In this document: positions 16,966 through 34,100 of the stretch, one piece after another | Layout: the number at the start of each line of letters is the position of its first letter | How positions within the stretch are numbered: the first letter of the stretch is position 1 | Origin: Aureispira sp. CCB-QB1 | GTDB taxonomy: Bacteria; Bacteroidota; Bacteroidia; Chitinophagales; Saprospiraceae | Assembly: GCA_945870185.1 (NCBI GenBank) | Contig: CAMBRK010000035.1 | Coordinates: forward strand, 1-40,535 | Length of the DNA: 40,535 bases | Direction: 5' to 3' | The notes under the pieces: model-generated | Told to the model about the DNA's origin: nothing | What the model saw: only the letters and a program-made list of their open reading frames with translations | Databases searched by the model: none | Translations under genes and position numbers: made by a program

Positions 16966-19900
16966 TTAATCTATCAATATAAAATTACCTGCTGATATAA
17001 AATTACCACTTTTTAGTAGTTTGTATTGATAAATACCCGCTGATAAATGATTAAGGTCTAAAATTATAGATTTACCGTCAAATATATTTTGCTCGTAAAT
17101 CAAGTTACCTAAAATATCCACTATCAAAATTTTATCTACACTTTCCTCACCAAAAACGACTTCGACTATTCCTGTGCTTGGATTGGGGTATAAAGATATA
17201 CTAGCTTCATGCTTTTGATTACTTCTAGGCTCAAGCAATGTAGTGCAATCTTCATTAAATTGATGATTGACAAGTGATTCATCTTTTGTCACCAGTAACC
17301 CATAAGCTTCGTACACAGCACTTCCAAAAGAGACAGTACACATATTAGCAATGTTAGCTATTTCATTCCATTCTGACTGACTAAGTGATGCAATACCATA
17401 AAGCCTTCTTTTGGTATCAAGTTCCCAAATCCTTTTGCGGGCAGCAAGGAAAGGATGATTTGTATGGAAGACTGTTAATTGTTGTGTTAAATTCTGCAAT
17501 ATATTATGATTGAGCGCATTTTTTTCTACTCGCCAATTTTGCAGAGCTTCTTGTTCTTCTCGCAAAGTTGCATATAATGCGGTTAAAGCATCGCTTGATG
17601 CTTCCTCAGATGCCTGGCCATACCAATTTTTGATTGAAAGCTGAATATTTTTAATATTTCTTATTTTTGTAGCAAGCCACCTATGTTCATCATTTGTCAA
17701 GGATGTGAGGCTTTTTTTGGTGTTTTCTATTTCGTACCATGCTATCATTTCTTGGTCTAAATTATCAAAATAATAAGGACTATTTACTTGAGAGCTAATT
17801 TTCTCAGTCCATGCTATTTGTGGGTTATTTCTCACCGTGCTATACATAGAATAATGGCTTTCCCAGACATGCCTATAATGGGGGTATGTAGGATCATCAT
17901 AGATATCAGCATTATTAAAATAATTGGCAATCATCGCGTTCGCTTCTTCTTGTGGCAACAACACAAACTGTGCATATTGTGATGTGTCTTCTCCAATAAT
18001 TGGTAAATCAAATTGGATAGAACTACATGAAGACATGTTACTGCAAGAATTAGGAGCACCGTTAAGTGGAAACCAGTCATTTGCAAACTGCGAAGGCCAA
18101 ATTACTGAAGGGCGAGGGCCTGTTTGAGATGGATCAACTTTAAATTTTATTTTATCAAAATAAGATTGACTACCCGATGGCATAGAATGCTGAGTATCGC
18201 CCCACGCTCTAGCTTCGGATCCTGAGGCAAAGACATTTCCTCTAGAATCTTGGAGTCCTATGTTTGTTGAATTTTGCAAGCGAATATTATTAATATTGTT
18301 GCCTCCTAAGGTATATAACATATCTCCACCATTAAAAAATCGAAATGTCTTAATATTGGATGATGTACTATTGCAACAATACTTACTTAGTCGACTTAAA
18401 CTACTTGATATAAATTCCGTACCTGTTGCAGAAGCAGCTAAAACATTCCCTTTGTAAAAATTATTACTACTATTAGATTGATTTATCCTTCCTCCTCTAT
18501 TTTTAAAATCATTTTCCAATAATACTAATCTTGTCGAATTGAACAAATTAATGTCAAATTCTGAAAGAATTCCTTCAAATTCATTTTCTCTAATCAAGCC
18601 GTAAACACCTCCTAAAGGCGTGCAAGAAGTAATGTTCATTATATCCCCATTATTAGTAGTTCTATCATAAAATTTATTTCGATCAACTTTTAATGAAGAA
18701 TAAGTAAGATCAGATAGAAATATTGCATGGTTGGTTCCTTCTATATGAAATTCATTATCATTAGAAATATCCACAAAAATATTTTCGCTACTTAGGACAT
18801 CTATTGCTCTACATAGTTTAAAATTACTTAAAACATGAAATTCGTTTCCATACATTTGAATATTATTTAAACTACCGTTAGTACTATAAAAACATTTATC
18901 AATGTCTCCAGAAAACCTATTATTAAGTAAATAAGTCAAGTCATTGGGGTGGTCTTCTTTAATTCCATAGGAAAGGTAATTATTTGCGGCTGCATCTGTG
19001 ACTTCGAAATGTGTATTTTGTATGGAAATACCTGTTCTTGACGCTAGGATTCCATGGGACAAATTTTTAAAAATACTTCCATATGTAAACTCATCACCAT
19101 CTACTAATATACCTCTTACTGTAAAAGCTTCTATGCCTGCATAGCCCCTGCTGGTCCAGGAAGGTTGCCCACTATAGGCTGGTTTCATGCCTCCTGTAGA
19201 CTCAAATTTGCAATTGTAAAAATATGAAAAAATTTGATTATGTGAGTTGGTGAAAGGATAATGGCACCCTACATAATTATTAATAAATCTTGACTCATCA
19301 GCAGTCAACCTCCAGCCATTTGACAATTCAATAGCTCTATAAGCATCCATAATGGTTGTATTAGTGAATATCAATTGACCAGTAGTATAAAAATAAAAAG
19401 GATTAGGGTTTCCTATTGACCTAATGCCTCTCCACATTGATGAACACCCTTCTAATCTTGAATCTATAAACGTAACTGCACCACTAGGCCCGAAATAGTT
19501 ACATATTATAGAAGACCCTGGACCACAAAACCAATTTGTATTCAAAAACCTAACATCTTGAATGTCAATAATTAAATCACCTACTAGGTTAAAACATTGG
19601 TTTGGGATTGCTGTAGAAGTTCCCCTTACGAATGATTGTATCGTTGGATTAGGGCCTGAAATCAAGGAACTTAGGTAAACTGTACCCCCAGGCATTCCAA
19701 TATTTTTACACGAAGATCCAGCTACACAATATGGCTCCGTAATGATTACTTCTTCACATTTTTTACCACAACAGCCGTGGCAATCAATGACTTCTACGCA
19801 AACATTGTAGGTACCAGCTGAAGAAAAAATATGATTTGGGGTAGGTTGTGTAGAAGTATTATTTTGTATCCCACTTGCAGGGTCTCCAAAATTCCACTTA

Positions 19901-20721
19901 AAAGATTCAAATTGACAAGTATTATCATTATTGGTTGTTCCAAAACCTACTTGTTTACCTGAAATTGATGTCGTGATATCTGTAAGGGCGTTTGTATTAC
20001 ATGTTAAAACTGCATTTTTAAATGTGAATGCACCTTGAATTATATTGGAGCCTAAAATAAAAGTATTACCAATCCAGATTTGGTTAAATCCAGAATTGGC
20101 TTGCACTGTGAAAGGAACGGTTAATGTTGTTAAGTTAGTATTGGTAATTGTGTGAGTTATTAATGTTTGTTTTGGATTATTATAAAATGAAAACAAGGGC
20201 ATATCATTTACGAGGTCTTTTGTTACCCTAATTTCCATTGTGTTTCCTATTTTATTTTTTTCACACTGCAATCCAGCAACATCAATAGAAAATTCAAATG
20301 AGAGATTTGGATTTTGCAGGATACTTACATTTTGGAAAATTCCTTCATGGGTTTCAATGCAAGTAAATTCAGAACCATTGTAAGGTTGCCAAGGAATGTT
20401 CCAGTTATCGCAAAGTTTATCATGGGGAGATAATGGGTTTGGCATTGCGTGATGAGGGTTAGGTGGTGCACAAAACCAATTATCAACACAACCACCCCCT
20501 AAACTACTTGAAGCATTATTATTAGGCAAAGTACAAGGAGGCCCCAATAAGAAATTAGGATTTTGTATTATATTTTTGCCACATTGCCCCCATCCGACAT
20601 CAACCTTTACCATCAACAAAAATAATGTCAGAACAAAGGTCCTAATAAGATTAATACCTAAGTCATTGTTAAGTAGAACAGGTACACACCTACTTGGAAC
20701 ATGAAATCTATTCATTTTCAT
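16966..20721 (-). CDS. Large T9SS protein with PKD domain and right-handed β-helix region
   Basis: 1251 residues, exported. The signal segment ('IRTFVLTLFLLMVKVDVGWG') spans about residues 25-45, so the true start may be slightly internal. About 50-250: a carbohydrate-binding-like β-sandwich region beginning 'CGKNIIQNPNFLLG'. About 255-330: PKD domain ('FESFKWNFGDPASG', 'HIFSSAGTYNVCVEV'). About 350-830: parallel β-helix with many N-rich rungs ('LTYLLNNRFSGDIDKC', 'IQMYGNEFHVL'). About 930-1150: a helical region. Last 75: T9SS domain ('ISLYPNPSTGIVEV', 'NHLSAGIYQYKLL'). It resembles Bacteroidota surface adhesins or polysaccharide-active proteins, but no catalytic residues can be assigned. Confidence 0.88.
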   Translation of the reverse strand: MKMNRFHVPSRCVPVLLNNDLGINLIRTFVLTLFLLMVKVDVGWGQCGKNIIQNPNFLLGPPCTLPNNNASSSLGGGCVDNWFCAPPNPHHAMPNPLSPHDKLCDNWNIPWQPYNGSEFTCIETHEGIFQNVSILQNPNLSFEFSIDVAGLQCEKNKIGNTMEIRVTKDLVNDMPLFSFYNNPKQTLITHTITNTNLTTLTVPFTVQANSGFNQIWIGNTFILGSNIIQGAFTFKNAVLTCNTNALTDITTSISGKQVGFGTTNNDNTCQFESFKWNFGDPASGIQNNTSTQPTPNHIFSSAGTYNVCVEVIDCHGCCGKKCEEVIITEPYCVAGSSCKNIGMPGGTVYLSSLISGPNPTIQSFVRGTSTAIPNQCFNLVGDLIIDIQDVRFLNTNWFCGPGSSIICNYFGPSGAVTFIDSRLEGCSSMWRGIRSIGNPNPFYFYTTGQLIFTNTTIMDAYRAIELSNGWRLTADESRFINNYVGCHYPFTNSHNQIFSYFYNCKFESTGGMKPAYSGQPSWTSRGYAGIEAFTVRGILVDGDEFTYGSIFKNLSHGILASRTGISIQNTHFEVTDAAANNYLSYGIKEDHPNDLTYLLNNRFSGDIDKCFYSTNGSLNNIQMYGNEFHVLSNFKLCRAIDVLSSENIFVDISNDNEFHIEGTNHAIFLSDLTYSSLKVDRNKFYDRTTNNGDIMNITSCTPLGGVYGLIRENEFEGILSEFDINLFNSTRLVLLENDFKNRGGRINQSNSSNNFYKGNVLAASATGTEFISSSLSRLSKYCCNSTSSNIKTFRFFNGGDMLYTLGGNNINNIRLQNSTNIGLQDSRGNVFASGSEARAWGDTQHSMPSGSQSYFDKIKFKVDPSQTGPRPSVIWPSQFANDWFPLNGAPNSCSNMSSCSSIQFDLPIIGEDTSQYAQFVLLPQEEANAMIANYFNNADIYDDPTYPHYRHVWESHYSMYSTVRNNPQIAWTEKISSQVNSPYYFDNLDQEMIAWYEIENTKKSLTSLTNDEHRWLATKIRNIKNIQLSIKNWYGQASEEASSDALTALYATLREEQEALQNWRVEKNALNHNILQNLTQQLTVFHTNHPFLAARKRIWELDTKRRLYGIASLSQSEWNEIANIANMCTVSFGSAVYEAYGLLVTKDESLVNHQFNEDCTTLLEPRSNQKHEASISLYPNPSTGIVEVVFGEESVDKILIVDILGNLIYEQNIFDGKSIILDLNHLSAGIYQYKLLKSGNFISAGNFILID

Positions 20722-20967
20722 AAAATTTGCAATTTAGAGAACTTATGGTTTTTTCTTACATTTGTGAGTCGTTTACACCAGTATACTTGCCGGATTGCAG
20801 GAGATCGATCACGATTTTAAGTAGGACATGTCGTAATATTTTGCATCGATGCAGTGATCAAAATCCTGTAATTGTCTAACATGTATTTTTCTTGTTGTTG
20901 GGTAAAGCTTCCTTTTAGTAATTCATCATGTGAGTCCAAAAAATTATGTTAAAAAAAAATGTCCAAA

Positions 20968-20975
20968 CAAAGATA
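20968..20975 (-). promoter_or_regulatory. Possible -7 box for the large T9SS gene
   Basis: CAAAGATA on plus reads TATCTTTG on minus. It would give a leader of about 240 nt containing the palindrome GCATCGATGC near 20845. No -33 TTG at standard spacing. No gene is visible in 20722-21100. Confidence 0.35.
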
Positions 20976-21100
20976 AGGGAATTAAATTTTACACAGGTAA
21001 CTTTATAGCCATTTTTTCATATATTTTTATTCATAAACCAAAATATACCCTTTTTGGGGTAGGAGTGTAGATTCTGCTCTATGGCAGTACTATTAAAACA

Positions 21101-21373
21101 TATCTGTTCTTGAACAAAAAACTCTTACTTCTTGAATAAAATTGCGCACTTTTACCATAAAACTGCGTACTTTTAATATAATACTATGTACATTTTGAAT
21201 ATAGTTTTGTACTTTTATCAAATATGTGCGTACTATTTGAATAAAAGAGCGTATTATTAACAAATTAGTGCGTACTTTTAAAACAAAAGTGAGTACATTT
21301 AACATAAAATATTGTACATTTAGCACTATACTGCGTACTATTTGAATATAATTGTGGTCTTTTTGAAAAAAAT
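21101..21373. repeat. 21-bp tandem repeat array A (about 13 degenerate units)
   Basis: Units of exactly 21 bp with no spacers; phase is kept over twelve units from 21122 to 21373, plus one decayed unit at 21101. Plus-strand unit shape: TGCGTACTTTT, then two or three variable bases, then ATAAAA-like. The most conserved part is GTACTTTT; GTAC is a palindrome. T and A tracts sit near opposite ends of each unit, about one helical turn apart. Because the unit is a multiple of three, a long open frame exists on the minus strand with a heptad pattern, but the array is degenerate and has no start context. I call it a non-coding repeat. Confidence 0.9.
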
Positions 21374-21436
21374 GATTTTTTTTTGATGGATTGTACACAT
21401 TATTTTTTACACTCTCTTACACTCTCCTCAATAACT

Positions 21437-21709
21437 TTCTTCAAGTACTTAACAACCTTCTTTAAGTACTCGACAACCTTCTCTAAGTACTCTATAAGCT
21501 TCTTCAAGTACTTGATAACCTTCTCTAAGTACTCTATAACCTTCTTTAAGTACTCTATAAGCTTCTTTAAGTACTTGATAACCTTCTCTAAGTACTCTAT
21601 AAGCTTCTTCAAGTACTTGATAACCTTCTCTAAGTACTCGATAAGCTTCTACAAGTACTTGTCAACTCTTTTTGAGTGCTCGAAGACTTTCTTTCGATAC
21701 TCAAAGTCT
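21437..21709. repeat. 21-bp tandem repeat array B (13 units, AAGTACT core)
   Basis: Thirteen contiguous 21-bp units, the central ten nearly identical. Each reads TTCTT(C/T)AAGTACTTGATAA or the variant with CTCTATAAG, then two or three bases to the next unit. Edge units are decayed (21668-21709). AAGTACTT is a perfect palindrome. On the minus strand the core reads as ideal heptads (LIEYLKK, VIEYLEK) for 70 codons at 21400-21612. Upstream, in the same frame, an AAG-to-TAG change blocks a longer frame that would continue the heptads. Array A ends 63 bp away. Confidence 0.92.
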
Positions 21710-21791
21710 TTTTTTGGGTCTCTATGGATGATTTTTACTAAAATCCAAAAAAGGAGCTTGGTTTTAGCATCCAATACAAGGTGGTTTTGGG

Positions 21792-21821
21792 TTTAACCCG
21801 GATTATATAATGCGGGTTAAA
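21792..21821. repeat. 30-bp near-perfect palindrome bordering array B
   Basis: Arms TTTAACCCG (21792-21800) and CGGGTTAAA (21813-21821) flank an inner ATTATATAAT palindrome. Only one symmetric pair of positions mismatches over 30 bp. It could form a cruciform or an RNA hairpin, or bind a dimeric protein. No T tract follows on plus. Confidence 0.7.
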
Positions 21822-22062
21822 ATTTAAAATCACCATTTTATCCTTAGATTCCTAGACAGAAGATGTTAATATTAAATTTCTTGGATTACGCTAGTAAATG
21901 TTCGTATTGAATGACCATAAAAGGAAACAAATTTGCATTTTAGGCATTATTATTTTGGTGTTTTCACTATTTGAGAGCAAAAACATTATTGAAACTATTG
22001 TGCCTAATTGAAAAATACATATAAATTTTTAAACTAAATTAAAATAAGTTTTTATTTTTTTG
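21822..22062. other. Intergenic region upstream of pheT
   Basis: AT-rich sequence without a credible ORF between the 30-bp palindrome and the pheT promoter boxes. Confidence 0.5.
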
Positions 22063-22082
22063 TAAATTTGCCCTTAAATTTG
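22063..22082 (+). promoter_or_regulatory. Twin -7 boxes upstream of pheT
   Basis: TAAATTTG occurs twice, at 22063-22070 and 22075-22082, both matching TAnnTTTG and offset by 12 bp. Either would give a leader of about 85-105 nt for pheT. No clean -33 TTG. Confidence 0.5.
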
Positions 22083-22091
22083 TGCAAGTTG

Positions 22092-22131
22092 GACCTAAAA
22101 TAGGCTGTATATTAAGTTTTTTGTTTAGGTC
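22092..22131 (+). promoter_or_regulatory. pheT leader hairpin
   Basis: GACCTAAA (22092-22099) and TTTAGGTC (22124-22131) form a perfect 8-bp stem. The left arm also lies in a competing small hairpin, CCTA-AAA-TAGG (22094-22104). Two mutually exclusive folds directly upstream of a tRNA synthetase gene could be regulatory, but no Phe-rich leader peptide or T-box was recognised. Confidence 0.35.
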
Positions 22132-22176
22132 TTCAGGTAATATTTAGGGTGGTTAATATTTTAATAAAAGTGTAGT

Positions 22177-24621
22177 ATGAAGTTGTCGTTGAACTGGTTA
22201 AAAAGATATCTAAAAATCACTTACACACCAGAAAAAATAGCAGAAATGCTAACCATTATCGGGTTGGAAGTTGAGGGTATTGATAAAGTAGAGTCTATAA
22301 AGGGTGGCCTGAAAGGTGTGGTTGTGGGTGAAGTAGTAACTTGTGATAAACATCCTGATGCTGATCGACTTTCTGTTACCACAGTAAATATTGGAAGTGG
22401 TGATCACCTTCAGATTGTATGTGGCGCTCCTAATGTGGCAGCAGGTCAGAAAGTCATGGTGGCTACTATCGGTACTGAATTATATGCCAAAGACGGTACT
22501 CCCTGGGCGATTAAAAAAGGAAAAATACGTGGCGTAGAGTCACAAGGAATGATTTGTGCTGAGGATGAACTCGGTATTGGAGAAGATCATTCTGGCATTA
22601 CGATACTACCTTCAGACACCAATATTGGCTTAGATGCGGCTACATTTTACCAAATTGAGGACGATTATGTTTTTGAAGTAGGTTTAACACCTAATAGATC
22701 TGATGCTACATCTCAGTTGGGTGTTGCAAGAGATTTATTAGCATACCTCAGAGTAAATGAAGGATATACAGATGATATCATTGAGCCCGATTTGTCCCAT
22801 TTTATCACAGAAAGGGTTGCATTAAATCTAGACATTGAAATAGAAGACAAAATTGCGTGTCCAAGGTACACCGGTATCACTATTAATAATGTCAATGTCC
22901 AGGAATCTCCCGATTGGTTGAAAAAATTACTGAAAGCAGTAGGAGTAAAACCCATCAACAATGTTGTGGATATCACTAATTATGTTTTAAACGAATATGG
23001 CCAACCACTTCACGGCTTTGATGCAGATAAGATTTCCGGTAAAAAAGTCATTATTAAAAAACTTCCCCAAGATACTGAATTTGTGACTTTGGATGGGGTA
23101 ACCCGAAAGCTTCACCAAGATGACCTGATGATTTGTGATGGCGAAGGACAACCGTTGACAATAGCAGGTGTATACGGAGGATTGAATAGTGGCATCACTG
23201 AGCAAACTCAAAATGTATTTTTGGAATCAGCCCATTTTCAAGCCAAAGCGATCAGAAAGACAAGTACACGACATAATCTTAGGACAGATGCTGCTAAAGT
23301 ATTTGAAAAAGGTTCAGATCCCAATATTACAGAAATAGCTTTGAAGCGAGCGGCCACATTGATCAGAGATTTAGCAGGAGGCTCTATCAGTGACAAGTTG
23401 GTAGATGTTTATCCGACCAAAATCCCATCAGTAGAAGTCAGGTTGTATTATGCTCATATAAATCAATTGATTGGTACCCAAATCAGTGAAGAAGATGTAC
23501 ATGCTATTTTACAAGCAATGGATATGGAAATCGAGCCATTTGATGACGATAGTATTTTGGTAAAAGTACCTACCAATAAGACAGATGTAATCAGAGATGT
23601 CGATTTAATAGAAGAAATCATCAGAATTTATGGTCTCAATAGAGTACCCGTATCCAATCAGATTCGCAGCACCATTTCGTATACTGAAAGACCTGACAAA
23701 CATAAAACCAAAGAATTAATTTCTGATTTTCTTGCATCATCTGGTTTTAATGAAATGATGGGGCTATCATTGGTAGAATCAAGGTTTTACAAAGGCTTGG
23801 ACTTCGTAGATGAAGCCAACTTTGTTTACATCAACAATACTTCCAATATTCATTTGGATATCATGAGACCCGACATGTTGGTCAGTGGTTTGATATCCGT
23901 ATCTTATAACCTTAATAGACAACAAAATAACCTACAGTTGTTTGAGTTGGGTAAGAGTTACAACAAGATATCTTCTGGATATGAAGAAAAGGAAATGCTT
24001 TCTATTTTCATGACTGGAAAAAAGAATGAAGAATCTTGGCTTAGTGACAGTAAATCAGAAAAATCGTTTTATGATATCAAGAAAGCGGTCATTTCGGTTT
24101 TAAATAGAGTAGGGATTCAACAGTTTCAGACTGAAGAAATCCACGGTCAAGGCAGATGGGCTTATGGAATCAGAATTCATAGAGGCCCGATCATCATTGC
24201 TGAACTAGGTGAAGTGCAAAAGCAAGTTGCCAAATCCATGGGAGTAAAAACCAATGTGAACTATGGTGAAATACATTTTACAAGTTTATTAAAATGTATG
24301 GGCAAAGATAAAGTTCAGGTAGCTGAAATTAGTAAATACCCTGCGGTAAGAAGGGATTTAGCATTGGTAATAGACAAAAAAGTGAAATTTGCCGAAATCG
24401 AACAAATTGCAAAACAATCAGAAAAGAAAATTTTGAAGCAAATTTCTCTATTTGATGTTTACGAAAATAAGCAACAATTGGGTGAAGATAAAAAATCTTA
24501 TGCAGTCTCTTTCGTTTTTGAAGATAGCTCCAAAACACTTAATGATAGTGAAATTGATCACATCATGCATAAAATTTCAACACAATTGTTAGAAAAATTA
24601 GGAGCAAATATTAGAAAATAG
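22177..24621 (+). CDS. pheT: Phenylalanine-tRNA ligase beta subunit
   Basis: Large subunit of the α2β2 enzyme that charges tRNA-Phe. 814 residues, typical. N-terminal 'MKLSLNWLKRYL' is the family start; about 40-150 is the EMAP-like tRNA-binding domain ('GVVVGEVVTCDKHPDADRLS', 'IVCGAPNVAAGQKV'). About 210-395 is the B3/B4 editing domain ('NNVVDITNYVLNEYGQPLHG'). About 405-480 is B5, 490-700 the catalytic-like core, and about 720-814 the FDX-ACB anticodon-binding domain ('ISKYPAVRRDLALVID'). pheS is not in this window. It appears to head a cluster with the coiled-coil gene and zapA (28-31 bp gap, then overlap). Confidence 0.97.
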   Translation: MKLSLNWLKRYLKITYTPEKIAEMLTIIGLEVEGIDKVESIKGGLKGVVVGEVVTCDKHPDADRLSVTTVNIGSGDHLQIVCGAPNVAAGQKVMVATIGTELYAKDGTPWAIKKGKIRGVESQGMICAEDELGIGEDHSGITILPSDTNIGLDAATFYQIEDDYVFEVGLTPNRSDATSQLGVARDLLAYLRVNEGYTDDIIEPDLSHFITERVALNLDIEIEDKIACPRYTGITINNVNVQESPDWLKKLLKAVGVKPINNVVDITNYVLNEYGQPLHGFDADKISGKKVIIKKLPQDTEFVTLDGVTRKLHQDDLMICDGEGQPLTIAGVYGGLNSGITEQTQNVFLESAHFQAKAIRKTSTRHNLRTDAAKVFEKGSDPNITEIALKRAATLIRDLAGGSISDKLVDVYPTKIPSVEVRLYYAHINQLIGTQISEEDVHAILQAMDMEIEPFDDDSILVKVPTNKTDVIRDVDLIEEIIRIYGLNRVPVSNQIRSTISYTERPDKHKTKELISDFLASSGFNEMMGLSLVESRFYKGLDFVDEANFVYINNTSNIHLDIMRPDMLVSGLISVSYNLNRQQNNLQLFELGKSYNKISSGYEEKEMLSIFMTGKKNEESWLSDSKSEKSFYDIKKAVISVLNRVGIQQFQTEEIHGQGRWAYGIRIHRGPIIIAELGEVQKQVAKSMGVKTNVNYGEIHFTSLLKCMGKDKVQVAEISKYPAVRRDLALVIDKKVKFAEIEQIAKQSEKKILKQISLFDVYENKQQLGEDKKSYAVSFVFEDSSKTLNDSEIDHIMHKISTQLLEKLGANIRK

Positions 24622-24652
24622 TATCGTATTATAAAAAAAATATATATCTTTG

Positions 24653-25009
24653 ATGCAAAATTTAGCTGAAAATCTTGAATTAATCATTGAAAAAACCAAA
24701 CGATTGGTCAATGAGTGTCAACTTTTAAAAGCTGAAAACGAAAAATTAGAAGTTCAATTAAGTCATCTAAAAGTAGAGGCTGATCAATATAAAAATATGG
24801 CGCAACAAAAAAACGCCATAGAGGAAGAAGAAATAGTGGAGGATAAAACAGAAAGCAAAATACAAGTAGATATTGAAGACCAAAATATAGCTGCAGTTCA
24901 GGACGGGCAAACCCCAGATAGTAAACAGCTAAAAATCAAACTGGACGAATTTATCGAAGACTTAGATCAATGTATTCAAATCATTCAATCCGGTGAGCAT
25001 GGAAAATAA
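24653..25009 (+). CDS. Small coiled-coil protein preceding zapA
   Basis: 118 residues. Residues about 1-65 are a strong amphipathic coiled coil ('MQNLAENLELIIEKTKRLV', 'QLLKAENEKLEVQLSHLKVE'), followed by an acidic linker and a short C-terminal helix ('LKIKLDEFIEDLDQCIQII'). Size, coiled coil and overlap with zapA suggest a division-associated partner of ZapA, comparable in character to ZapB, but sequence identity to ZapB cannot be judged here. ATG 24653 is preferred over TTG 24650. A TATCTTTG box directly before the ATG is probably chance, as it would leave no leader. Confidence 0.75.
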   Translation: MQNLAENLELIIEKTKRLVNECQLLKAENEKLEVQLSHLKVEADQYKNMAQQKNAIEEEEIVEDKTESKIQVDIEDQNIAAVQDGQTPDSKQLKIKLDEFIEDLDQCIQIIQSGEHGK

Positions 25010-25283
25010 TGAGACGAAAACAATTCAGATAACTGTAGCTGGTAGGACATTTCCCGTAAAGGCCACAAAGGATGAAGAAGTTGTGATGCGGAATCTAGAA
25101 ACTGAAATCAATGGTAAAATTCTGGAATTCCAGAAAATGTATCCCATGAGAGATAAGTTGGATTGTGTCATCATGACCGTGTTAACATACACTTATGATC
25201 TGCAAAATAAAAAAGATGATAACGATAAAGCCCAAATTGACCAAAAGGTCGATACTTTATTGACTTTATTAAGTGACATTTAA
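24999..25283 (+). CDS. zapA: Cell division protein ZapA
   Basis: 94 residues. ZapA proteins bind and bundle FtsZ filaments at mid-cell. The N-terminal β-hairpin ('KTIQITVAGRTFPVKATKDE') and the helix with 'MRNLETEINGKILEFQKMYP' followed by 'DKLDCVIMTVLTYTYDLQNK' match the family, as does the length. ATG 24999 lies within the last 11 bp of the upstream coiled-coil gene; a GTG six bases earlier is an alternative. The overlap implies translational coupling with the upstream protein. Confidence 0.88.
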   Translation: MENNETKTIQITVAGRTFPVKATKDEEVVMRNLETEINGKILEFQKMYPMRDKLDCVIMTVLTYTYDLQNKKDDNDKAQIDQKVDTLLTLLSDI

Positions 25284-25314
25284 TTATTAGGCTGCTGGAC
25301 GTTTATTTTCTTTC

Positions 25315-25424
25315 CTGAATCTCTTCCTATTGCTGAATAAAAGTGATTATTTTTGGTAATCCAATACATTCAGCGCAATAGCAAAGCCCATATTGGGTAT
25401 TATTCATTTTTAAAACTTATTCAG
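25315..25424 (+). ncRNA. Structured zapA-rny spacer, possible 6S-like RNA or rny leader
   Basis: Nested pairings fill this 144-bp spacer: CTGAAT (25315-25320) with ATTCAG (25419-25424). Inside that, CTATT-GCTGAAT (25327-25338) pairs with ATTCAGC-GCAATAG (25368-25381) apart from a two-base bulge. GATTA (25345-25349) pairs with TAATC (25357-25361). A small CCCA-TAT-TGGG hairpin (25387-25397) sits on the 3' side. A long terminal hairpin with a small hairpin on the 3' bubble strand next to zapA is reminiscent of 6S RNA. Against this, the closing helix is short and a TATTTTTG promoter box (25348-25355) lies in the loop. Confidence 0.3.
25348..25355 (+). promoter_or_regulatory. Possible -7 box for rny
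   Basis: TATTTTTG matches TAnnTTTG. The nearest upstream TTG leaves only 15 bp spacing, shorter than usual. If used, rny would have a leader of roughly 65 nt, and the frame extension back to TTG 25353 would not be translated. Confidence 0.4.
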
Positions 25425-25427
25425 AAT

Positions 25428-27077
25428 ATGGAGTCTATAATAGGACCAATTTTGGGTTTGTTAGTAGGAGGAGGAGCATCTTATTTTGTGGTCCAATCCA
25501 TTTTCAAATCCAGAGTAAAACAAGCCAACGACCAGGCTGATATTACATTAAAAGAGGCAGAACTTACTGCAAAAAGAAAAGTTGACGAGGCTGAAAACAA
25601 GGCCGAGAAAATTGTATCTAGAGCTGAACAGCAAAACGAATCTGTAAAACAGAAAAAAATTCAGGAAGCACGGGATAATTTTTCTAAATTGAAGTCCGAG
25701 TTTGAAGCTTGGAAAGCAGATCAAAAAGTAGAGATCAAAGAGCGGGAACTCACTGCAGTGGCACTCGAAAAAGAACTGAAAGTCAAACAAGATGCTATCC
25801 TTTATGAACTAGAATCCATCGAGACAAGAGAACAGGAAGTCAATGCTATCCGTGAAAATCTGGATGTTCAGATGAAAATAGTAGCCAAGAAAAAGGAAGA
25901 GTTGGATTCTGCCCATGACCGATTTATCAAGGAATTGGAGACGATATCCAAACTGACACAGCAGCAAGCCAAAGATCAATTGCTCGAAGCTGTAAAAGGA
26001 AAAGTGCAAAATGAAGCATTGGCTATAGAAAAAGAAGCCATCACTAATGCTCATACCAATGCTAATAAGGAAGCTAAGAAAATCGTCATTCAGACGATTC
26101 AACGTATGTGTGCTGAGTACACTATAGAAAATACGGTTTCTGTATTTAACTTGGAATCAGATGAAATCAAAGGACAAATCATAGGTCGTGAAGGTAGGAA
26201 TATCCGAGCTTTGGAAGCAGCTACGGGTGCGGAGATCGTAGTAGATGATACACCTGAAGCAATTGTCATCTCCAGCTTTGACCCTATCAGAAGAGAACTT
26301 TGTCGACTAGCGCTTAAGAAATTGGTAGCAGATGGTAGAATTCACCCTGCAAAAATCGAAGAAACCGTAGCCAAAGTTAAAAAGCAACTCGAAGAGCAAA
26401 TCATCGAGATAGGAGAGCGTACTATCATAGACTTGGATATTCATGGTTTGGCACCATACCTAGTCAAAATGGTAGGTAGAATGAGATTCAGATCATCTTA
26501 CGGTCAGAACCTTCTGAAGCACTCCATAGAAACAGCCAATTTATGCGCAACGATGGCGGCTGAACTAGGCCTCAATCCTAAACAGGTCAAAATGGCCAAA
26601 AGAGCCGGACTATTGCATGATATAGGTAAAGTAGCTGAAGAAGATTCTGAATTGTCGCATGCACTTCTCGGTATGGAGATATGCGAAAAGCATAAAGAAC
26701 ATGCGGTCATCCTCAATGCTGTAGGGGCACACCACGACGAGATCGAGATGAATAATATCATATCACCCATTGTACAGGCATGTGATGCGATCTCAGGCGC
26801 AAGACCGGGCGCAAGAAGAGAAATCCTAGAGAGTTATTTGAAGCGTATAGGAGAGTTGGAAGAACTAGCCTTATCTTATGACGGTGTACAAAAAGCTTAT
26901 GCGCTGCAAGCAGGTAGAGAGCTTAGAGTCATCGTAGAGTCTGAAAAAGTAACTGACCAATATGCAGATGACTTGGCATTTATCATCTCTCAAAAAATAC
27001 AAGATGAAATGCAGTATCCTGGACAAGTAAAAGTCACCGTCATCAGGGAAAAGCGAGCTACAGCATTCGCTAGATAA
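25428..27077 (+). CDS. rny: Ribonuclease Y
   Basis: Membrane-anchored endoribonuclease that initiates mRNA decay. 549 residues from ATG 25428. Residues about 1-22 are the membrane helix ('[19 protein letters not shown]'); about 25-240 a long coiled coil. About 245-310 is a KH domain with '[20 protein letters not shown]'. About 370-470 is an HD domain ('[20 protein letters not shown]', '[10 protein letters not shown]'). The C-terminus ends '[19 protein letters not shown]', as in the family. A 25-codon upstream extension from TTG 25353 would put charged sequence before the helix and overlaps a promoter box, so it was rejected. A terminator follows. Confidence 0.96.
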
Positions 27078-27101
27078 TAAGATACTTTGTAAACATTTTA
27101 A

Positions 27102-27138
27102 AAAAGGGCGCAGGATTAGATTCTGTGCCCTTTTCTTA
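27102..27138 (+). terminator. Terminator after rny
   Basis: AAAAGGGCGCAG (27102-27113) pairs with CTGTGCCCTTTT (27123-27134), with one G-U pair and a 9-nt loop. The T-rich 3' side continues as CTTATT. Confidence 0.8.
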
Positions 27139-27262
27139 TTAAATGGTCAAATATTGGAAAATAAAATGAAAATATATTATAAAATGTTTTGCACTTTTGG
27201 TGTAAGTGTTATTTCACACTAAGATTTTATATCTATATCAAAATTTTACCATTTTTTAATCA

Positions 27263-28219
27263 TTGAAGCACACACATGAGAAAGTTTTACTTGTTTTTTT
27301 TTGTTTAGCATGTTATGCTTCCCTATATGGGCAATGTGGTTGGGCAGGCAATATGAATTATCCAACTGGTCCTATAAATCAAGGAAGTGGATATGAAGTT
27401 TTTGTCCAAGTTCGGCAAGACGGTGTTACTAATCCTGGAGGTCAAGGAGCAAATATTAATGGTTTTGTACATAGAGGGACAGTTTCTAATTTTGGAGGTT
27501 CATGGTCTAAGATTCAAACATCACCCATGAGTTATCATTCTGATACAGGTAATAACGATGTTTATGTTCTTAATATCGGTCCTTCTTTAACACAAGGATT
27601 GTATGAATATACATGTTATTGTACATGCAATAGCTCAGCACAAAGTTGGGTTGGTGGTTTGAATGCACAATTAACTGTAAACGCTCCACTACTTGTAAAA
27701 TACCAAAACTTTAATGTGAGCAGAAAGTCATCTGTAAACTACTTACAATGGACCACCGCCTCTGAAACCAATAATGAATATTTTGAAGTACAACATAGTA
27801 CTGACGGTCGTCATTTTGCAGCAGTAGGTCAGGTTAAAGGTTATGGCAATAGCAATATGGACAGAGATTATAATTTTAGTCATAAAGAGTCAGGAACAGC
27901 TGTATCCTATTACAGACTCAAGCAAGTAGATTTTGATGGCAAATATGAATATTCGGGTATTATTTCAGTTCGATCCGAAAATGATCGTTTGGATGAAAGT
28001 ATAGCTGTGAGTCCAAATCCTGTGGCCGACTTTTTATTTGTTAACGGTATATCAGAACAAGCTGAGTACATAGTTACCGATTTTTCAGGTAGACAATTGA
28101 TGACTGGTTCAGTTGTTTCAGGACAAGGTTTGGATGTTGCTACATTGTCATCAGGATTTTATACATTGATCGTTCAAGAAGGAGCTCAAAAATCAGCTCA
28201 TAAATGGATTAAAAAATAA
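27263..28219 (+). CDS. T9SS type A sorting-domain protein, start uncertain because of a T9 tract
   Basis: Exported protein of unknown function, 318 residues from TTG 27263. Signal peptide ('LLVFFCLACYASLYG'), then a β-rich domain (about 24-145, 'CGWAGNMNYPTGPINQGSGY'). A fibronectin-like linker domain common in T9SS cargo follows ('YFEVQHSTDGRHFAAVG', 'SYYRLKQVDFDGKYEYSG'). The last part is the T9SS domain ('IAVSPNPVADFLFV', 'ATLSSGFYTLIV'). The start is odd: ATG 27276 begins the more natural MRKFYLFFF signal peptide but is out of frame. Nine T's at 27294-27302 separate it from the main frame; ten T's would join them. Either TTG is used or the gene is switched by slippage. Confidence 0.8.
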   Translation: MKHTHEKVLLVFFCLACYASLYGQCGWAGNMNYPTGPINQGSGYEVFVQVRQDGVTNPGGQGANINGFVHRGTVSNFGGSWSKIQTSPMSYHSDTGNNDVYVLNIGPSLTQGLYEYTCYCTCNSSAQSWVGGLNAQLTVNAPLLVKYQNFNVSRKSSVNYLQWTTASETNNEYFEVQHSTDGRHFAAVGQVKGYGNSNMDRDYNFSHKESGTAVSYYRLKQVDFDGKYEYSGIISVRSENDRLDESIAVSPNPVADFLFVNGISEQAEYIVTDFSGRQLMTGSVVSGQGLDVATLSSGFYTLIVQEGAQKSAHKWIKK

Positions 28220-28228
28220 GTTAAGGTT

Positions 28229-29128
28229 TTATTCATAATTCCACTTACTTATACGAAGCTGGTATCTTTTTTCACTAACATTCCAAAGGGATGGATCGAA
28301 AGTAGATTCCAGCTTTTCTTCTTCCATATCATTGAACATGCTTTCAAAAAAATCTATGGAAGTTGCCTTTTCTATGTCATTAATAGCGACCATAAAATTT
28401 TGTAAAGGCTTATCTGTCATTTCATGAGGAATGATGAAGCCAATGGCTTTTTTATTTTTATAATCCAGTAGGACCTTGTAAAAGGCAGAAGGTACGGTGA
28501 CTTGATTACTTTTACCGATGGTTTTGATAGGATTGCTGAGGATGGGACCTGTGATGACATAAAGGGTTTCTGCTTTGTAGGTCCAATCTCGGATATTTTC
28601 TTCTAGTTCTTTCCACACACCATTATTAAACTGTCGAAGCTGTGGCGACATATTACTCATATAAAACGTCTCTCGCATAGCTATCTCATCAAAAGCCATA
28701 TCTCCTGCAGGTACCATATGTCCACGCGTATATCCGGAACCACTGTAATCGTTGTGTCTTGCCGAATGAGTGGTGACCAACGGATCTTCTGAAAATTCTT
28801 TATGGCGAGGTACATTGGGCGCATTGAGCATATTTCTATCCATCATATAGGCTGTCCATTCTGATTGTTCATGATCTTCCATATATGAAATACTGTAATA
28901 TGTATGATGAACCAATTCACCTTGCTGAGATGGTAAATAAGTACGGGCTGTTTCATCATTGGGGCCGAATACATCAACCGGTTTTGTCGGTTGGGAAGTA
29001 AATTTTTCGTTGACGTACCAAATCCCACCCATAAGCATAGCCGTAATCAGTATGAGCAACATGACCAATCTGAATGTTGTTTGGAGTCCTTTGCCTTGCT
29101 TAGCGTGATTTTGTCTGAACTGTGCCAT
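28229..29128 (-). CDS. Membrane-anchored DNA/RNA non-specific endonuclease (NUC1 / ββα-Me family)
   Basis: 299 residues. An N-terminal membrane helix at about 20-38 ('RLVMLLILITAMLMGGIWYV') without an obvious cleavage site suggests anchoring with the nuclease domain outside the cytoplasm. The NUC1 signature is clear: 'SGYTRGHMVPAGDM' with catalytic His137, preceded by 'SARHNDY', and 'MSNMSPQLRQFNNGVW' supplying the metal-binding Asn near 168. Later 'LYVITGPIL' is also typical. Expected activity is metal-dependent cleavage of DNA and RNA, perhaps for nutrient recovery. Its ATG shares one base with the stop of lysC (TAATG), so it is translationally coupled to aspartate kinase. Confidence 0.9.
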   Translation of the reverse strand: MAQFRQNHAKQGKGLQTTFRLVMLLILITAMLMGGIWYVNEKFTSQPTKPVDVFGPNDETARTYLPSQQGELVHHTYYSISYMEDHEQSEWTAYMMDRNMLNAPNVPRHKEFSEDPLVTTHSARHNDYSGSGYTRGHMVPAGDMAFDEIAMRETFYMSNMSPQLRQFNNGVWKELEENIRDWTYKAETLYVITGPILSNPIKTIGKSNQVTVPSAFYKVLLDYKNKKAIGFIIPHEMTDKPLQNFMVAINDIEKATSIDFFESMFNDMEEEKLESTFDPSLWNVSEKRYQLRISKWNYE

Positions 29129-30429
29129 TATACGTTGGGATTATCTTTGCGTTTCATCTTGGGTAGGTTCCTGACTACGATTTGTACGGTTTCGGAAAGA
29201 CGCTCTTCAAAGAGTACCAATTTATTCTCTTTCATATCCTTGAGGACATCTTCATTGAAATGTCTGATCGTGATGAGTTCTAGATCATTGTCAGCCACCA
29301 TTTTAAATTCTGAACCGAGTTCTTTTTCAAATTTTTTGATTCTATCAGGAACTGTATTGACACAAACAGAAAAACTAATGGCCGTATTTCTCATCATATT
29401 TACCTTAAGTCTGCACTTGGCTAAAAGCGCAAAAATCATACTTAAATGATGTTCTGCGGCAAACGAAAAGTCATTAGTAGAGATATGCAATAAAGATTGA
29501 TCAGGTTCAATGACGATGACCGGCGGGTAGCTGAGTTCCTTTTCATCACTGATGATCGTACCTTCACTTTTGGGATCCAAAAATGGACGTACATACAGTG
29601 GGATTTGTTTGTTTTGTAACGGTTTTATAGTCTTTGGGTGGATCACCTTGGCTCCATAGTAAGTCATTTCTATGGCTTCCTTGTACGAAAGCCTAGGCAA
29701 CATGATCACTTCGTCAAAAATACGGGGATCACCTGTCAATACTCCCGGTACATCTTTCCATATGTGCATACTGGAAGCATCCAAACAGTAAGACATGATG
29801 GCTGCGGTATAATCTGAACCTTCTCTACCTAGTGTAGTGGTAAAGTTTTCAGTGGTACTTCCTATAAAACCTTGCGTCACGAGGTGATTGTACTTTTCGA
29901 AAAGTGGTTTGGTTTTATTTTGGGCATTTTTCTGGGTGACATCCCAAATAATCTTGGCATCTCTATAGGTATTGTCTGTCAGGATGATATCCCGCACATC
30001 CATCCACGCAGTATTGATTTTAAGATAATTGAGATAGTGATTCAGGATTTTGGAAGATAACATTTCTCCAATAGAAACGATTTGGTCATAGGTATAATCA
30101 TAGTCTTCATGAGGTGGTTCTTCTAGTATCCACTCTATTTCCACAAAGGTATCATTAATATCATCGGTGACTTCATTATTGGCAGGAAACAACTGATTGA
30201 TCAGGTCAAAGTGATTGTTTTTTATTTCTTCCAACAGGTTATTGACTTTCCCATCCTGAGCATAATAACTTTTGACTACTTCTTCCAAAGCATTGGTCGT
30301 TTTGCCCATGGCAGACACCACTACAATGAGTTTGTCTTGTTGGTACAATTTTAAAATCTCACCTACGTTTTTGAAACCATTAGCATCTTTAACTGAAGCC
30401 CCACCAAATTTAAATACCTTAATTTGCAT
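29128..30429 (-). CDS. lysC: Aspartate kinase
   Basis: Phosphorylates aspartate, the first committed step to lysine, threonine, methionine and isoleucine. 433 residues from ATG 30429. Motifs: 'MQIKVFKFGGASVKDANGF' at the N-terminus (KFGGxS), 'IVVVSAMGKTTNAL', 'TTLGREGSDYTAAI' (nucleotide/aspartate site) and 'IHPKTIKPLQNKQIPLYVRP'. About residues 300-430 are ACT regulatory domains. There is no homoserine dehydrogenase domain, so it is monofunctional. A longer frame to 30522 exists, but its extra 31 codons look unlike protein and include a promoter box. The symbol is by role; the isoenzyme type (lysC versus thrA-like) cannot be fixed. Confidence 0.92.
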   Translation of the reverse strand: MQIKVFKFGGASVKDANGFKNVGEILKLYQQDKLIVVVSAMGKTTNALEEVVKSYYAQDGKVNNLLEEIKNNHFDLINQLFPANNEVTDDINDTFVEIEWILEEPPHEDYDYTYDQIVSIGEMLSSKILNHYLNYLKINTAWMDVRDIILTDNTYRDAKIIWDVTQKNAQNKTKPLFEKYNHLVTQGFIGSTTENFTTTLGREGSDYTAAIMSYCLDASSMHIWKDVPGVLTGDPRIFDEVIMLPRLSYKEAIEMTYYGAKVIHPKTIKPLQNKQIPLYVRPFLDPKSEGTIISDEKELSYPPVIVIEPDQSLLHISTNDFSFAAEHHLSMIFALLAKCRLKVNMMRNTAISFSVCVNTVPDRIKKFEKELGSEFKMVADNDLELITIRHFNEDVLKDMKENKLVLFEERLSETVQIVVRNLPKMKRKDNPNV

Positions 30430-30458
30430 CTCTAGATTAATGTTTTTTGATCCAACCG

Positions 30459-30466
30459 CAAAAATA
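30459..30466 (-). promoter_or_regulatory. -7 promoter box for lysC-nuclease operon
   Basis: CAAAAATA on plus reads TATTTTTG on minus, a TAnnTTTG match 29 bp before the lysC ATG at 30429. It lies inside the longest possible lysC frame and so supports the shorter start. Confidence 0.55.
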
Positions 30467-30568
30467 CCATAAAAATTAAAATTACAGATGAAATCTAATA
30501 AATCCGCAGGATAATAATCCAAACCAACAACTTGTTCGGCCGGAGAAGTATGACACTTATTATTGTAA

Positions 30569-30860
30569 GCAGGTGCTCCAATTATTAATGCGAACGGTAA
30601 TTATATAAATGTGGATGCTCCAATGGTTAATGCGGACGCTCATTCTATAAATGCAGGTGCCCCAATTGTTAATGCGGACGCTCATTCTATAAATGCGAGT
30701 GCTCCAAATGTTAATGCGAACGGTAACTTTATAAATGCGGGTGCTCCAATTGTTAATGCACACGCTAATTCTATAATATCACATAGCTATTCCATAAAGT
30801 CACACTCTAATTCCATAAAATCACACGCTAATTCCATAAAATCTCATAGGTATATGAAAT
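30569..30860. repeat. 21-bp tandem repeat array C (about 14 units, partly a 42-bp higher-order repeat)
   Basis: Contiguous 21-bp units from 30569. In the first ten, units of type GCGGGTGCTCCAATTGTTAA alternate with type GCGGACGCTCATTCTATAAA, giving a 42-bp super-period. The last four switch to TCACACGCTAATTCCATAAA. No spacers interrupt the units. Both strands stay open across most of the array (plus-strand frame of period-7 residues such as 'GAPIVNADAHSINA'), which follows automatically from a stop-free 21-bp unit. I regard it as a non-coding repeat; a secreted repeat peptide cannot be excluded, but no signal sequence is seen. Confidence 0.9.
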
Positions 30861-31027
30861 ATGTAGGAAGTTAGTGATGACCAACATCAAGATCAAATGA
30901 TTTCACTTACTTAATTGTTGCAACAAATATGTTATCAGACTTTATTACATTCGACATTTATTGTATATGTAAAATAAAAATATAAAAATTACCCCTATCA
31001 AAATTTTTAAGTTTGGTAATGGTCACT

Positions 31028-31035
31028 TATCTTTG
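31028..31035 (+). promoter_or_regulatory. -7 promoter box for the metalloprotease gene
   Basis: TATCTTTG matches TAnnTTTG and would give a leader of about 130 nt to ATG 31172. The stretch from 30870 to here holds no gene. Confidence 0.5.
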
Positions 31036-31171
31036 TATCGATAAAAATTTTTCTACATTCCTATTTTTAGTTTACTACAGCTTCCGGTAAAAAAACGACC
31101 CCAATTCCGATTCTGATGTGACTACCAAAAAGATGGAGAAACTTATTTTTTTATTTTTTAAATTTTTTATC

Positions 31172-34100
31172 ATGAAATCAACAAAATTTTCTTTTTTTCT
31201 GATTTTCTTTTTGATCTCCTTTATGGGGATTAATGAGTTAAAATCTCAACATTTTAAATGTGGGACACCACCACCTACGGAAGCACAACGGGCTGAAATC
31301 ATACGTAGATTGAGGCTTAATGATGCCAGTAGGAATACAGGTTGTACTGATCCAGTGAACAATAGTACTAAAACTTATAAGCTAATCTTAGAATATGCAG
31401 TAAAAAATGGCGTGCATTTTTTAAGCCAATCTGATAAGACAAATATCGAAAACCATTTAAACAGCACCTTTTCTACAGTTAATGTTAGTTTTCAAATTTC
31501 TTATTGGCCTGTAATGTGCGACAATTGTGACCTTTATGATAAGGGGAATTGGGGGAGAGATAATCCACTTGACAATAATATAGATTTTAAAGATTGTTTA
31601 TGGGGACGGCTTACTGCCGGAAATGTAGATGGCGGAGGTGGTGTAGGCAATTACGAAGGTAGGTTTGTAAGCACGAAAGATTTATCAACAATAGCCCATG
31701 AATTAGGACATGCTCTTGGTCTACGACATACATTCGATAATTTCTCTGACGTCAATTCACAAAATAACGAAAATGTTTTCCAAGACAATAGAGCAGGTTG
31801 TCCATGTAATTGTAGGCTTAAAGGTGATTATATTTGTGATACACAAGTTGATCCTTATGTGTTTAGAAATGATAATTGGAATACACAAATGTTCAATAGT
31901 GCTCCTTATCTGGCAGGAACATTAACTGCAAATAATCCTACCATGAATAGGGTAAATTCATTTTCTCCTGGAAATTGTATCTTATCATCATTAAACACCA
32001 ATGTATATCATGTAGCAACTGAATTTGCTGTATCTGCTACAGGTAGTTATACATTCAATTCAACATTATTTGCGGGATCTGGCTCAGGCGGTTCACTCTA
32101 TTTATATGAAGATTCATTTAACCCTTCAACGCCATGTGCAAATTTATTACAAATAGCTGTTGGTACAGATAACTTGATAAGGATTTTAACAGCAGGCGTC
32201 AATTATATTTTGGTTGTAGCAGCTAACGTAAATGGAGATGTAGGAAATTATAGGGTAAAAATGGACCCCATCGCGGGGCAAATCATTTCTTCTGCTAAAA
32301 CAACACAACTTGGGTTAATTAATCTTGATGACATTCAAGATCAATGCGGTACTATTTACTCCAAATTAAACATAAATGAAAACCAAGTTCTTAACAATCT
32401 TATGTCATATCACAACCAAAGTAATTTGACACCAGGTCAAGGATCATTTATTAAGTTATGGAATTTAGGTAAGCCATGGGAGACCAGTGGGTCTGCACCT
32501 CCAAATGCAGGACCAGGTATGGATCCTGGCTTTGTAGTAAATAGCCCTATGACCATATCAAGTCCAATGAACCTCACAGGAGATATCATTGTTAATAGCC
32601 ATCTGACTATAAGTAATACTGTCTTAGGTTTTATGCAGGATAAAGGTATTATAATCAATGCAGGAGGCGCCATCACTGTAGACAATAGTCATCTGATTCC
32701 TTATTCAGGTGCTGGATGCTTTCCTCAGGCACAATACTGGAAGGGAATAGAAGTCAAAACACCGTCGAAAGTTCGAATTATGATCAAAAACAATAGTGTT
32801 ATTGATAGGGCTTTCACTGCGATTAAGGGCCACAATTGTAATATAGAAGGTTATATAATTACTGGATCTAGAATAAATAGTTATAACTATACTTCTTTAG
32901 ATATTCTGAATAATGCAGGATACTTTCAAGTAATTGAAAGGTGTATTATTAATGGTAAAATAGCATTTGAAAACTCCATAGATGGCTTACGTATCTCAAG
33001 TTCAAGTGTAACTGGACCATTATTTAAAGTTAAAAGTGCGACGCTAACAATTTTGGGTTCTAAAATATATTCACCTTTGGAGATTGAAAACATGGGAAGT
33101 CACACAGTGAGACTTTACAACAGTACTTTTTTCAATTTTGTAAACGCAAATCCTTTGAATGGAAAAGGTGTAGTCAGAGACAATACTTTTAATACTAGCG
33201 TGAATACATTTTTTAATACTTTGGATTTGGATATGTATAACAATACTTTTGAAGGTAATGACGGACCTACTATACTTGGATTTAGGCCAATAAATGTGCT
33301 TCTTTTTAAAAACAGTATGAGTAGTGCAAGATATGGTATTCAAAATGCTAACTTTTTTAGTAATACCCGTATAGAATGTAACAACTTCTTAACTCAAGGA
33401 ACCAATGACCTATTTTTAAGGGAACCCATAGCCACCTTCCAAGGAAACCTATCCCTCGCCGCAGGTAACTCCTTCTCCCGAACACCCAATCTCGAAGTCA
33501 ATTATTCAGGTGGCCCTGAAATAAAATATCATTTTAGGGATAATAACACAGAAGAACCGCTCAGAATTACACCAATTTCTAATTTTAGCCCCATAAGGAT
33601 TGACAACAAATTACCATCAGCCTGTGATATAAAATATCCTGACACTCCACCTATACCAGATCACTGCAATAACGAAATCAAAGATGGTGACGAAACGGGT
33701 GTAGATTGTGGTGGCTCTTGCCCTAGATACCCCGATACCCCTGTCATCATCACACCTTCCAACTGTATCAATGGTATACAGGATCAGGGCGAGACGGGCA
33801 TAGACTGTGGTGGACCATGTCCTCCTTGTCTGGTATCGTGCTCCAATGGTATCCAGGATAATGGAGAGTATGGAGTGGACTGTGGTGGACCTTGTCCGCC
33901 ATGTGTCAGTAGCACACCGCCTACCTGTACAGACGGTATTATGAATGGCAACGAATCAGGTATAGACTGTGGTGGCTCATGTCCACCATGCGGATACTAT
34001 CCACCTATCGGTGGTAGTAGTGGAGGCAATGGTGAGACGGGTGGAAGCTCAGGCAAATATACTAAAGGAGACCATACCGCCTTCATACAGCAGCTCAATG

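Follow-up and report, generated by a model that had tools for sequence, protein, structure and literature searches.

Background

The closest known kind of repeat to the arrays described here is BrickBuilt of Porphyromonas gingivalis, which, in the part of its published description drawn on here, consists of a 23-nt unit of a single sequence with a leader and a tail carrying IS5-like inverted ends and target duplications; five of its 19 copies lie beside type IX secretion system (T9SS) genes of the Por secretion system (PorSS) C-terminal domain (CTD) kind, and promoter activity is attributed to its flanking segments (PMC4596501). Extracts of two further accounts describe shorter units: 7-bp repeats lie between two promoters of the hmw1A gene of Haemophilus influenzae, where an effect on expression was measured (PMC8262952), and Beggiatoaceae harbour intergenic TAACTGA direct repeats, a 7-bp unit of one sequence (PMC4679880). 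None of the literature matches listed described a class of 21-bp arrays in Saprospiraceae. Here, three arrays of 21-bp units, termed A, B and C, are analysed in a 40,535 nt stretch ('the window') of contig CAMBRK010000035.1 of Aureispira sp. CCB-QB1, at two loci designated W_AB and W_C. They are read as a fast-evolving minisatellite situated at the edge where a surface-gene cassette recombines, an interpretation to which a probability of about 0.5 is assigned.

Structure and dispersal of the arrays

Three 21-bp tandem arrays had originally been predicted in the window, and Tandem Repeats Finder reports a period of 21 at each, together with higher-order periods of 42, 63 and 126. With their edges redrawn, array A (about 21113..21364, reverse strand) comprises 12 units of 21 bp, array B (21427..21709, reverse strand) 13 units of 21 bp and array C (30572..30860, forward strand) 12 units of two types, with a period of 21/42. 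The units are arranged head-to-tail in all three, with no unique spacers between the repeats, hence they are not clustered regularly interspaced short palindromic repeats (CRISPR), as had been anticipated; no search for cas genes was made. Diverged head-to-tail units, the number of which is unequal between copies within the genome (11-16 for A, 3-16 for B and 11-13 for C), are instead the marks of an intergenic minisatellite, or variable number tandem repeat. The predicted strictness of the spacing holds well beyond the window: over 247 units detected in 21 arrays, only two spacings depart from the 21-bp register, and the same arrays contain 506 array-by-position variants, a figure in which shared variants are counted in each array and do not represent independent events. 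The spacing looks constrained, although the yardstick for this is small.

All three families are dispersed through the genome, where the arrays outside the window were located by homology to A, B and C. Relatives of array B occur on contigs C134, C10 (two arrays), C69, C56, C114, C40 and C109, with a short match on C23; those of array A on C134, C146 and C23; and those of array C on C83, C89 and, in part, C6. In a 1.10 Mb sample of the genome, drawn from small contigs, background stretches and the window as well as from stretches chosen for their array matches or paralogs, every one of the 15 period-21 arrays of about three or more copies belonged to family A, B or C. In a named genome collection from which own or near-own records may have been excluded, a DNA pattern for B units had no match. 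Similarly, array B DNA matched only its own genome among 150 genomes of the family, in a weak search that scored at most four candidates per genome and recovered only 5 of the 16 places in the genome known otherwise.

The 5' cassette shared by distantly related genes

The sequence between array and gene, or leader, is 96, 92 and 93% identical in the three C pairs, and 87-100% identical in ten A/B pairs from five contigs, those involving C134 and C23 extending over about 140-170 bases. In the window, the A/B cassette (20585..21100, reverse strand), consisting of leader, promoter-like motif and signal-peptide code, lies upstream of a gene for a 1251-amino acid (aa) secreted protein with PKD and Por_Secre_tail domains (16966..20721, reverse strand), and its leader has 87-90% identity to C146, C57, C134 and C23 (for the last two, in a comparison confined to about 145 bases). 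The corresponding C cassette (30861..31260, forward strand) precedes a gene for a secreted reprolysin-like metallopeptidase of 1360 aa with a Por_Secre_tail (31118..35200, forward strand; likely start ATG at 31172), its leader being 96% identical to that of C83 and 92% to that of C89. C57, a contig that ends on the gene side, may be the continuation of C134 or C23.

Bacteroidota promoters have a -7 consensus of TAnnTTTG, which is fitted by the motif TATCTTTG. This is found in all eight A/B and C leaders, namely five of five aligned A/B leaders (20968..20975, reverse strand, in the window) and three of three C leaders (31028..31035, forward strand), and also in C114; where array and motif are on one contig, the array is always the upstream of the two. 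Several of the loci contain further matches to TAnnTTTG at other places.

Identity remains high through the signal-peptide code and then falls, reaching 0.97, 0.83 and 0.27 in successive 60-base steps when W_C is compared with C89. At fourfold sites in the mature coding parts, four pairs have identities of 0.34, 0.45, 0.42 and 0.26, which is near saturation. As the identity of the cassette is so far above that of the mature coding sequence, array, motif, leader and signal-peptide code appear to have a far more recent common history than the proteins themselves. On the side away from the gene, similarity ends at the array: BLAST matches begin at the array edge for W_C against C83 and for W_AB against C134 (within about 10 bases), and inside the array for W_C against C89 and W_AB against C146. 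A global alignment of W_C with C83 contains one 60-base step at its far end with 0.72 identity and no BLAST match. The pattern suggests that the 5' cassette has been exchanged, or converted, between genes.

The genes behind the cassette seem mostly to encode T9SS-secreted proteins. Thirteen loci were counted, excluding the partial C6 copy, weaker single-unit matches and C57. An adjacent open reading frame (ORF) has a Por_Secre_tail above the Pfam cut-off at three (W_AB, W_C and C10a, the last a 162-aa fragment with its 3' end facing the array) and below it at two (C69 and C109). Two more have a paralog of the W_C gene (C83, and C89, in which the match stops before the tail), and at four (C134, C146, C23 and C114) the link is presumed from the cassette alone. 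The remaining two, C10b and C40/C56, have no such link, the next gene but one at C10b having a weak tail. For background, a simple motif finds a YPNP-like tail in 7 of 355 ORFs, a different yardstick from Pfam.

Gene orientation around the arrays

Both window loci lie between divergent genes, as had originally been noted. W_AB separates the 1251-aa T9SS gene from a gene (22177..24621, forward strand) which is putatively pheT, a name that comes from the original prediction; W_C separates the metallopeptidase gene from what is presumably, on the same basis, lysC (29128..30522, reverse strand; start codon uncertain). The nearest named relatives of the pheT gene are metagenome bins, for instance Chitinophagales bacterium UW1SPNA035 and Bacteroidetes bacterium OLB9. 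As a rule for the genome, the divergent arrangement fails. At the ten loci where both neighbours could be read or inferred, five are divergent (W_AB, W_C, C134, C23 and C89), four tandem (C146, C83, C69 and C10a) and one convergent (C40/C56, two contigs joined through a shared 8-base duplication), the downstream genes of C134, C23 and C146 being beyond the contig end and their direction inferred from the cassette; the C10b, C114 and C109 loci reach contig ends. Since 29-35% of background gaps are divergent, five of ten is unremarkable (P 0.14-0.26). Insulation of divergent promoters, one of the functions originally suggested, cannot be the general role of the arrays, because tandem and convergent copies exist.

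The IS256-family element and other repeats

An IS256-family insertion sequence (IS) element with a Transposase_mut domain has ten full left ends in the genome, two of which abut B arrays (C10 and C40). The same eight bases adjoin its two ends in C40 and C56 (the end of stretch L052 and the start of L050), so one B array appears to have been split by the element. Between arrays A and B in the window, 21 bases (21394..21414, reverse strand) are identical to its left tip. The C71 copy (L185) has flanks matching those of C155 and C94, not each other, and may be recombined or chimeric. Also on C56, at L050 413-1158, a gene resembling those of Y1 transposases adjoins a pair of 44-bp repeats, which may be a REP-like arrangement.

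Several other short repeats were observed. A TATTG pentanucleotide run of 7-8 copies is present in C69 (L049 5454-5495), about 110 bp before a secreted-protein gene, and in C109 (L053 34-69), and could be a phase-variable promoter tract. Octamer arrays ATCTTGTG, TCACAAGA and ATCACAAA, of up to 18 copies, occur at L055 778-920 (C146), L081 12587-12653 and L146 9692-9756.

Arrays in other genomes

Stretches of four genomes of the same genus, G007 (230 kb), G003 (400 kb), G004 (169 kb) and G009 (161 kb), were scanned. The intergenic arrays of G007 comprise three with a period of 21, one of 22/50 and a short one of 11; G003 has three rows of period 42 at two loci, three of period 24, one of 12 and two of 7; no array of period 21 or 42 was present in the G004 and G009 stretches. 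The predicted family of fast-evolving 21-bp arrays is thus broader than the window could have revealed, with unrelated 21/42-bp arrays in two of the four genomes. The G007 and G003 units are no more alike to A and B than shuffles are; the early C unit against one L221 unit gave a fraction of 0.04, among 55 pairs. One G007 family occurs at two loci, and a search with a G003 array found no second locus.

More distantly, 29 pheT loci, mostly labelled Saprospiraceae (468 kb), contained no intergenic period-21 array and one coding period-21 array, and 51 further loci (1.02 Mb), with titles mostly from Bacteroidota, a single marginal period-21 array of 72 bp. No period-21 array of at least three copies was found at the pheT loci of relatives, the L103 locus having one of 2.2 copies, nor was a 21-bp array found in the locus of the G003 homolog of the array C metallopeptidase gene. 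The stretch matching the 5' end of that homolog contains (AAATA)7 (L182 2191-2227) and one TAA, a possible frameshift switch. Genes for DUF6261 proteins adjoin a 21/42-bp array in two species (L048 11391-12152, and L237 1637-2470 in G003).

It is possible, if doubtful, that the genus hosts a class of satellite DNA free in sequence and held in period at two helical turns, 21 or 42 bp, which in this genome has become the exchange edge of mobile promoter-plus-signal-peptide cassettes re-dressing distantly related T9SS surface proteins.

Discussion

As apparently non-coding minisatellites, the arrays would expand, contract and diverge through slippage and unequal exchange. Arrays A and C lie at the upstream edge of a 5' cassette of array, promoter-like motif, leader and signal-peptide code, which would have been swapped or converted among genes for T9SS-secreted proteins with only distantly related mature parts. 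The array may act mainly as a recombination landing pad for this exchange, with crossovers falling inside it, and secondarily as a spacer of variable length, the number of units probably altering expression by tuning the promoter behind; the period may be kept at 21 bp because this is two helical turns.

A number of observations weigh against this interpretation. The identity of the leaders may reflect strong constraint rather than exchange. Several cassette copies end at contig ends, and for this reason the genes behind them were inferred. The B arrays of C40/C56, C10a and C10b lie outside such a cassette. The arrays of G007 and G003 are not regularly upstream of T9SS genes at the five loci looked at (neighbours scanned at all but L210 and L221): that of L209 is 3' of a T9SS-tail gene, that of L205 is 3' of a gene for a giant Ig-like protein without such a tail, and that of L237 is upstream of a DUF6261 gene. 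In 27 background stretches of the genome (538 kb), picked without regard to arrays A and C but including three taken for single weak unit-sized matches, there was no period-21 array of at least three copies, against ten intergenic arrays of other periods, mostly short, so that the expectation of a general excess of period 21 is not upheld. Finally, the yardstick for insertions and deletions provided by the leaders, with 11 gap events to 162 substitutions in A/B pairs and 0 to 61 in C pairs, is small and its pairs are not independent.

A rather unlikely alternative is that a protein binding the same helix face at 21-bp intervals activates or silences the downstream surface-gene promoter, the array sequence drifting with the protein between species. 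Such phasing would account for the 21-bp register being kept in unrelated sequences of three species and for the distance from array end to TATCTTTG, which is about 135-175 bp in six of the seven copies of A and C, the seventh, C134, having about 310-325 bp. In B, the same seven positions vary and the rest hardly at all, concordantly across seven arrays (0 of 5000 permutations as uneven). However, private rare variants are evenly spread over the unit in A, B and C, with no deficit at the less variable positions (6 against 5.1 expected in A, 3 against 3.3 in C; dispersion p 0.69 in B), so the concordance in B may be one of shared ancestry, which seems to fit better than a guarded binding site. 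Nor is any motif common to the families: in no phase, on either strand, do the consensus units of A and B, or of A and C, resemble each other more than shuffles do, the resemblances noted originally, GCG-N-AC and ATAAA in A and C and GTACTT in A and B, being at chance level, and six of the 55 pairs tested, B against late C (fraction 0.097) among them, have a fraction of 0.1 or less. The C40/C56 locus, moreover, lies between convergent genes, and no candidate protein came to light, none having been sought. Predicted curvature, compared with column-permuted versions of 20 arrays of at least five units, is not enriched in the 14 from this genome (fractions at least 0.26), which leaves the proposed bending of DNA without backing; in G003, the L237 array has a curvature above that of every one of its 300 permutations. 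With motifs at chance level, curvature not enriched and rare variants not avoiding a core, the specific cooperative protein originally envisaged is unsupported.

Similarly unlikely is that the arrays are a purely neutral or selfish minisatellite without a role, propagated passively through gene duplication and IS activity. The even spread of rare variants is as expected of a satellite, B arrays harbour the IS256-family element, in one case with an 8-bp duplication, and neither curvature nor a shared motif distinguishes the units. No structured RNA in 20500-31400 matches Rfam at the gathering score, and folding is better than shuffles for B (z -5.3), as expected of a quasi-palindromic repeat, with z of -0.7 for A and +1.6 for C; the Rfam, folding, curvature and cross-family motif tests give no lead. 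Neutrality is harder to reconcile with a register held at 21 despite many variants, with the recurrence of 21/42 in unrelated sequences and with the association with T9SS cassettes.

That the arrays encode, or once encoded, heptapeptide repeats (21 bp being seven codons) is very improbable. A 137-aa ORF is open through array B at 21383-21796, but any 21-bp unit lacking a stop is expected to leave a frame open. In the B frame that has the fewest stops, variability is highest at first rather than third codon positions, and a stop interrupts this frame in B_W, B_C134 and B_C40; the window's C frame has a stop just before the array. This candidate was rejected with a caveat for array C, likewise counting against a non-coding minisatellite, as one frame is nearly stop-free (0, 0 and 1 stops in three copies) with third positions the most variable (0.51 against 0.37 and 0.35).

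If the arrays are indeed a minisatellite at the edge of an exchanged cassette, these Saprospiraceae-like bacteria would share and swap the 5' control and export parts of secreted proteins at satellite arrays, and cassette swapping would offer them a way of varying surface expression. That 21/42 bp recurs in unrelated sequences would make it testable whether selection sees helical phasing rather than sequence.

Set beside the systems outlined above, in the extracts drawn on, the arrays resemble the repeats of hmw1A in lying in the promoter region of surface protein genes, there an adhesin gene, with a varying copy number, but are diverged 21-bp repeats upstream of the predicted promoter (PMC8262952). 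With the Beggiatoaceae repeats they share the presence of many intergenic direct-repeat sets in one genome, for which a regulatory role was proposed, but have several unrelated 21-bp units in place of a 7-bp unit of one sequence (PMC4679880). The likeness to BrickBuilt is greatest: both are spacer-free, intergenic tandem repeats in many copies in one Bacteroidota genome, near T9SS genes, and BrickBuilt itself varies in unit number between strains and has frequent translational stops (PMC4596501). Inverted pairs of at least 14 nt, a limit below which the 12-nt ends of BrickBuilt fall, were sought in three regions; none flanks the window arrays, and one 15-nt pair of 87% identity flanks the C69 array. 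The 15 arrays of this genome have a period of 21 rather than 23, a comparison of unit length, not sequence, and where BrickBuilt has one sequence with its own leader and tail, there are here several unrelated sequences, flanked by the promoter-like and signal-peptide cassette of a gene.

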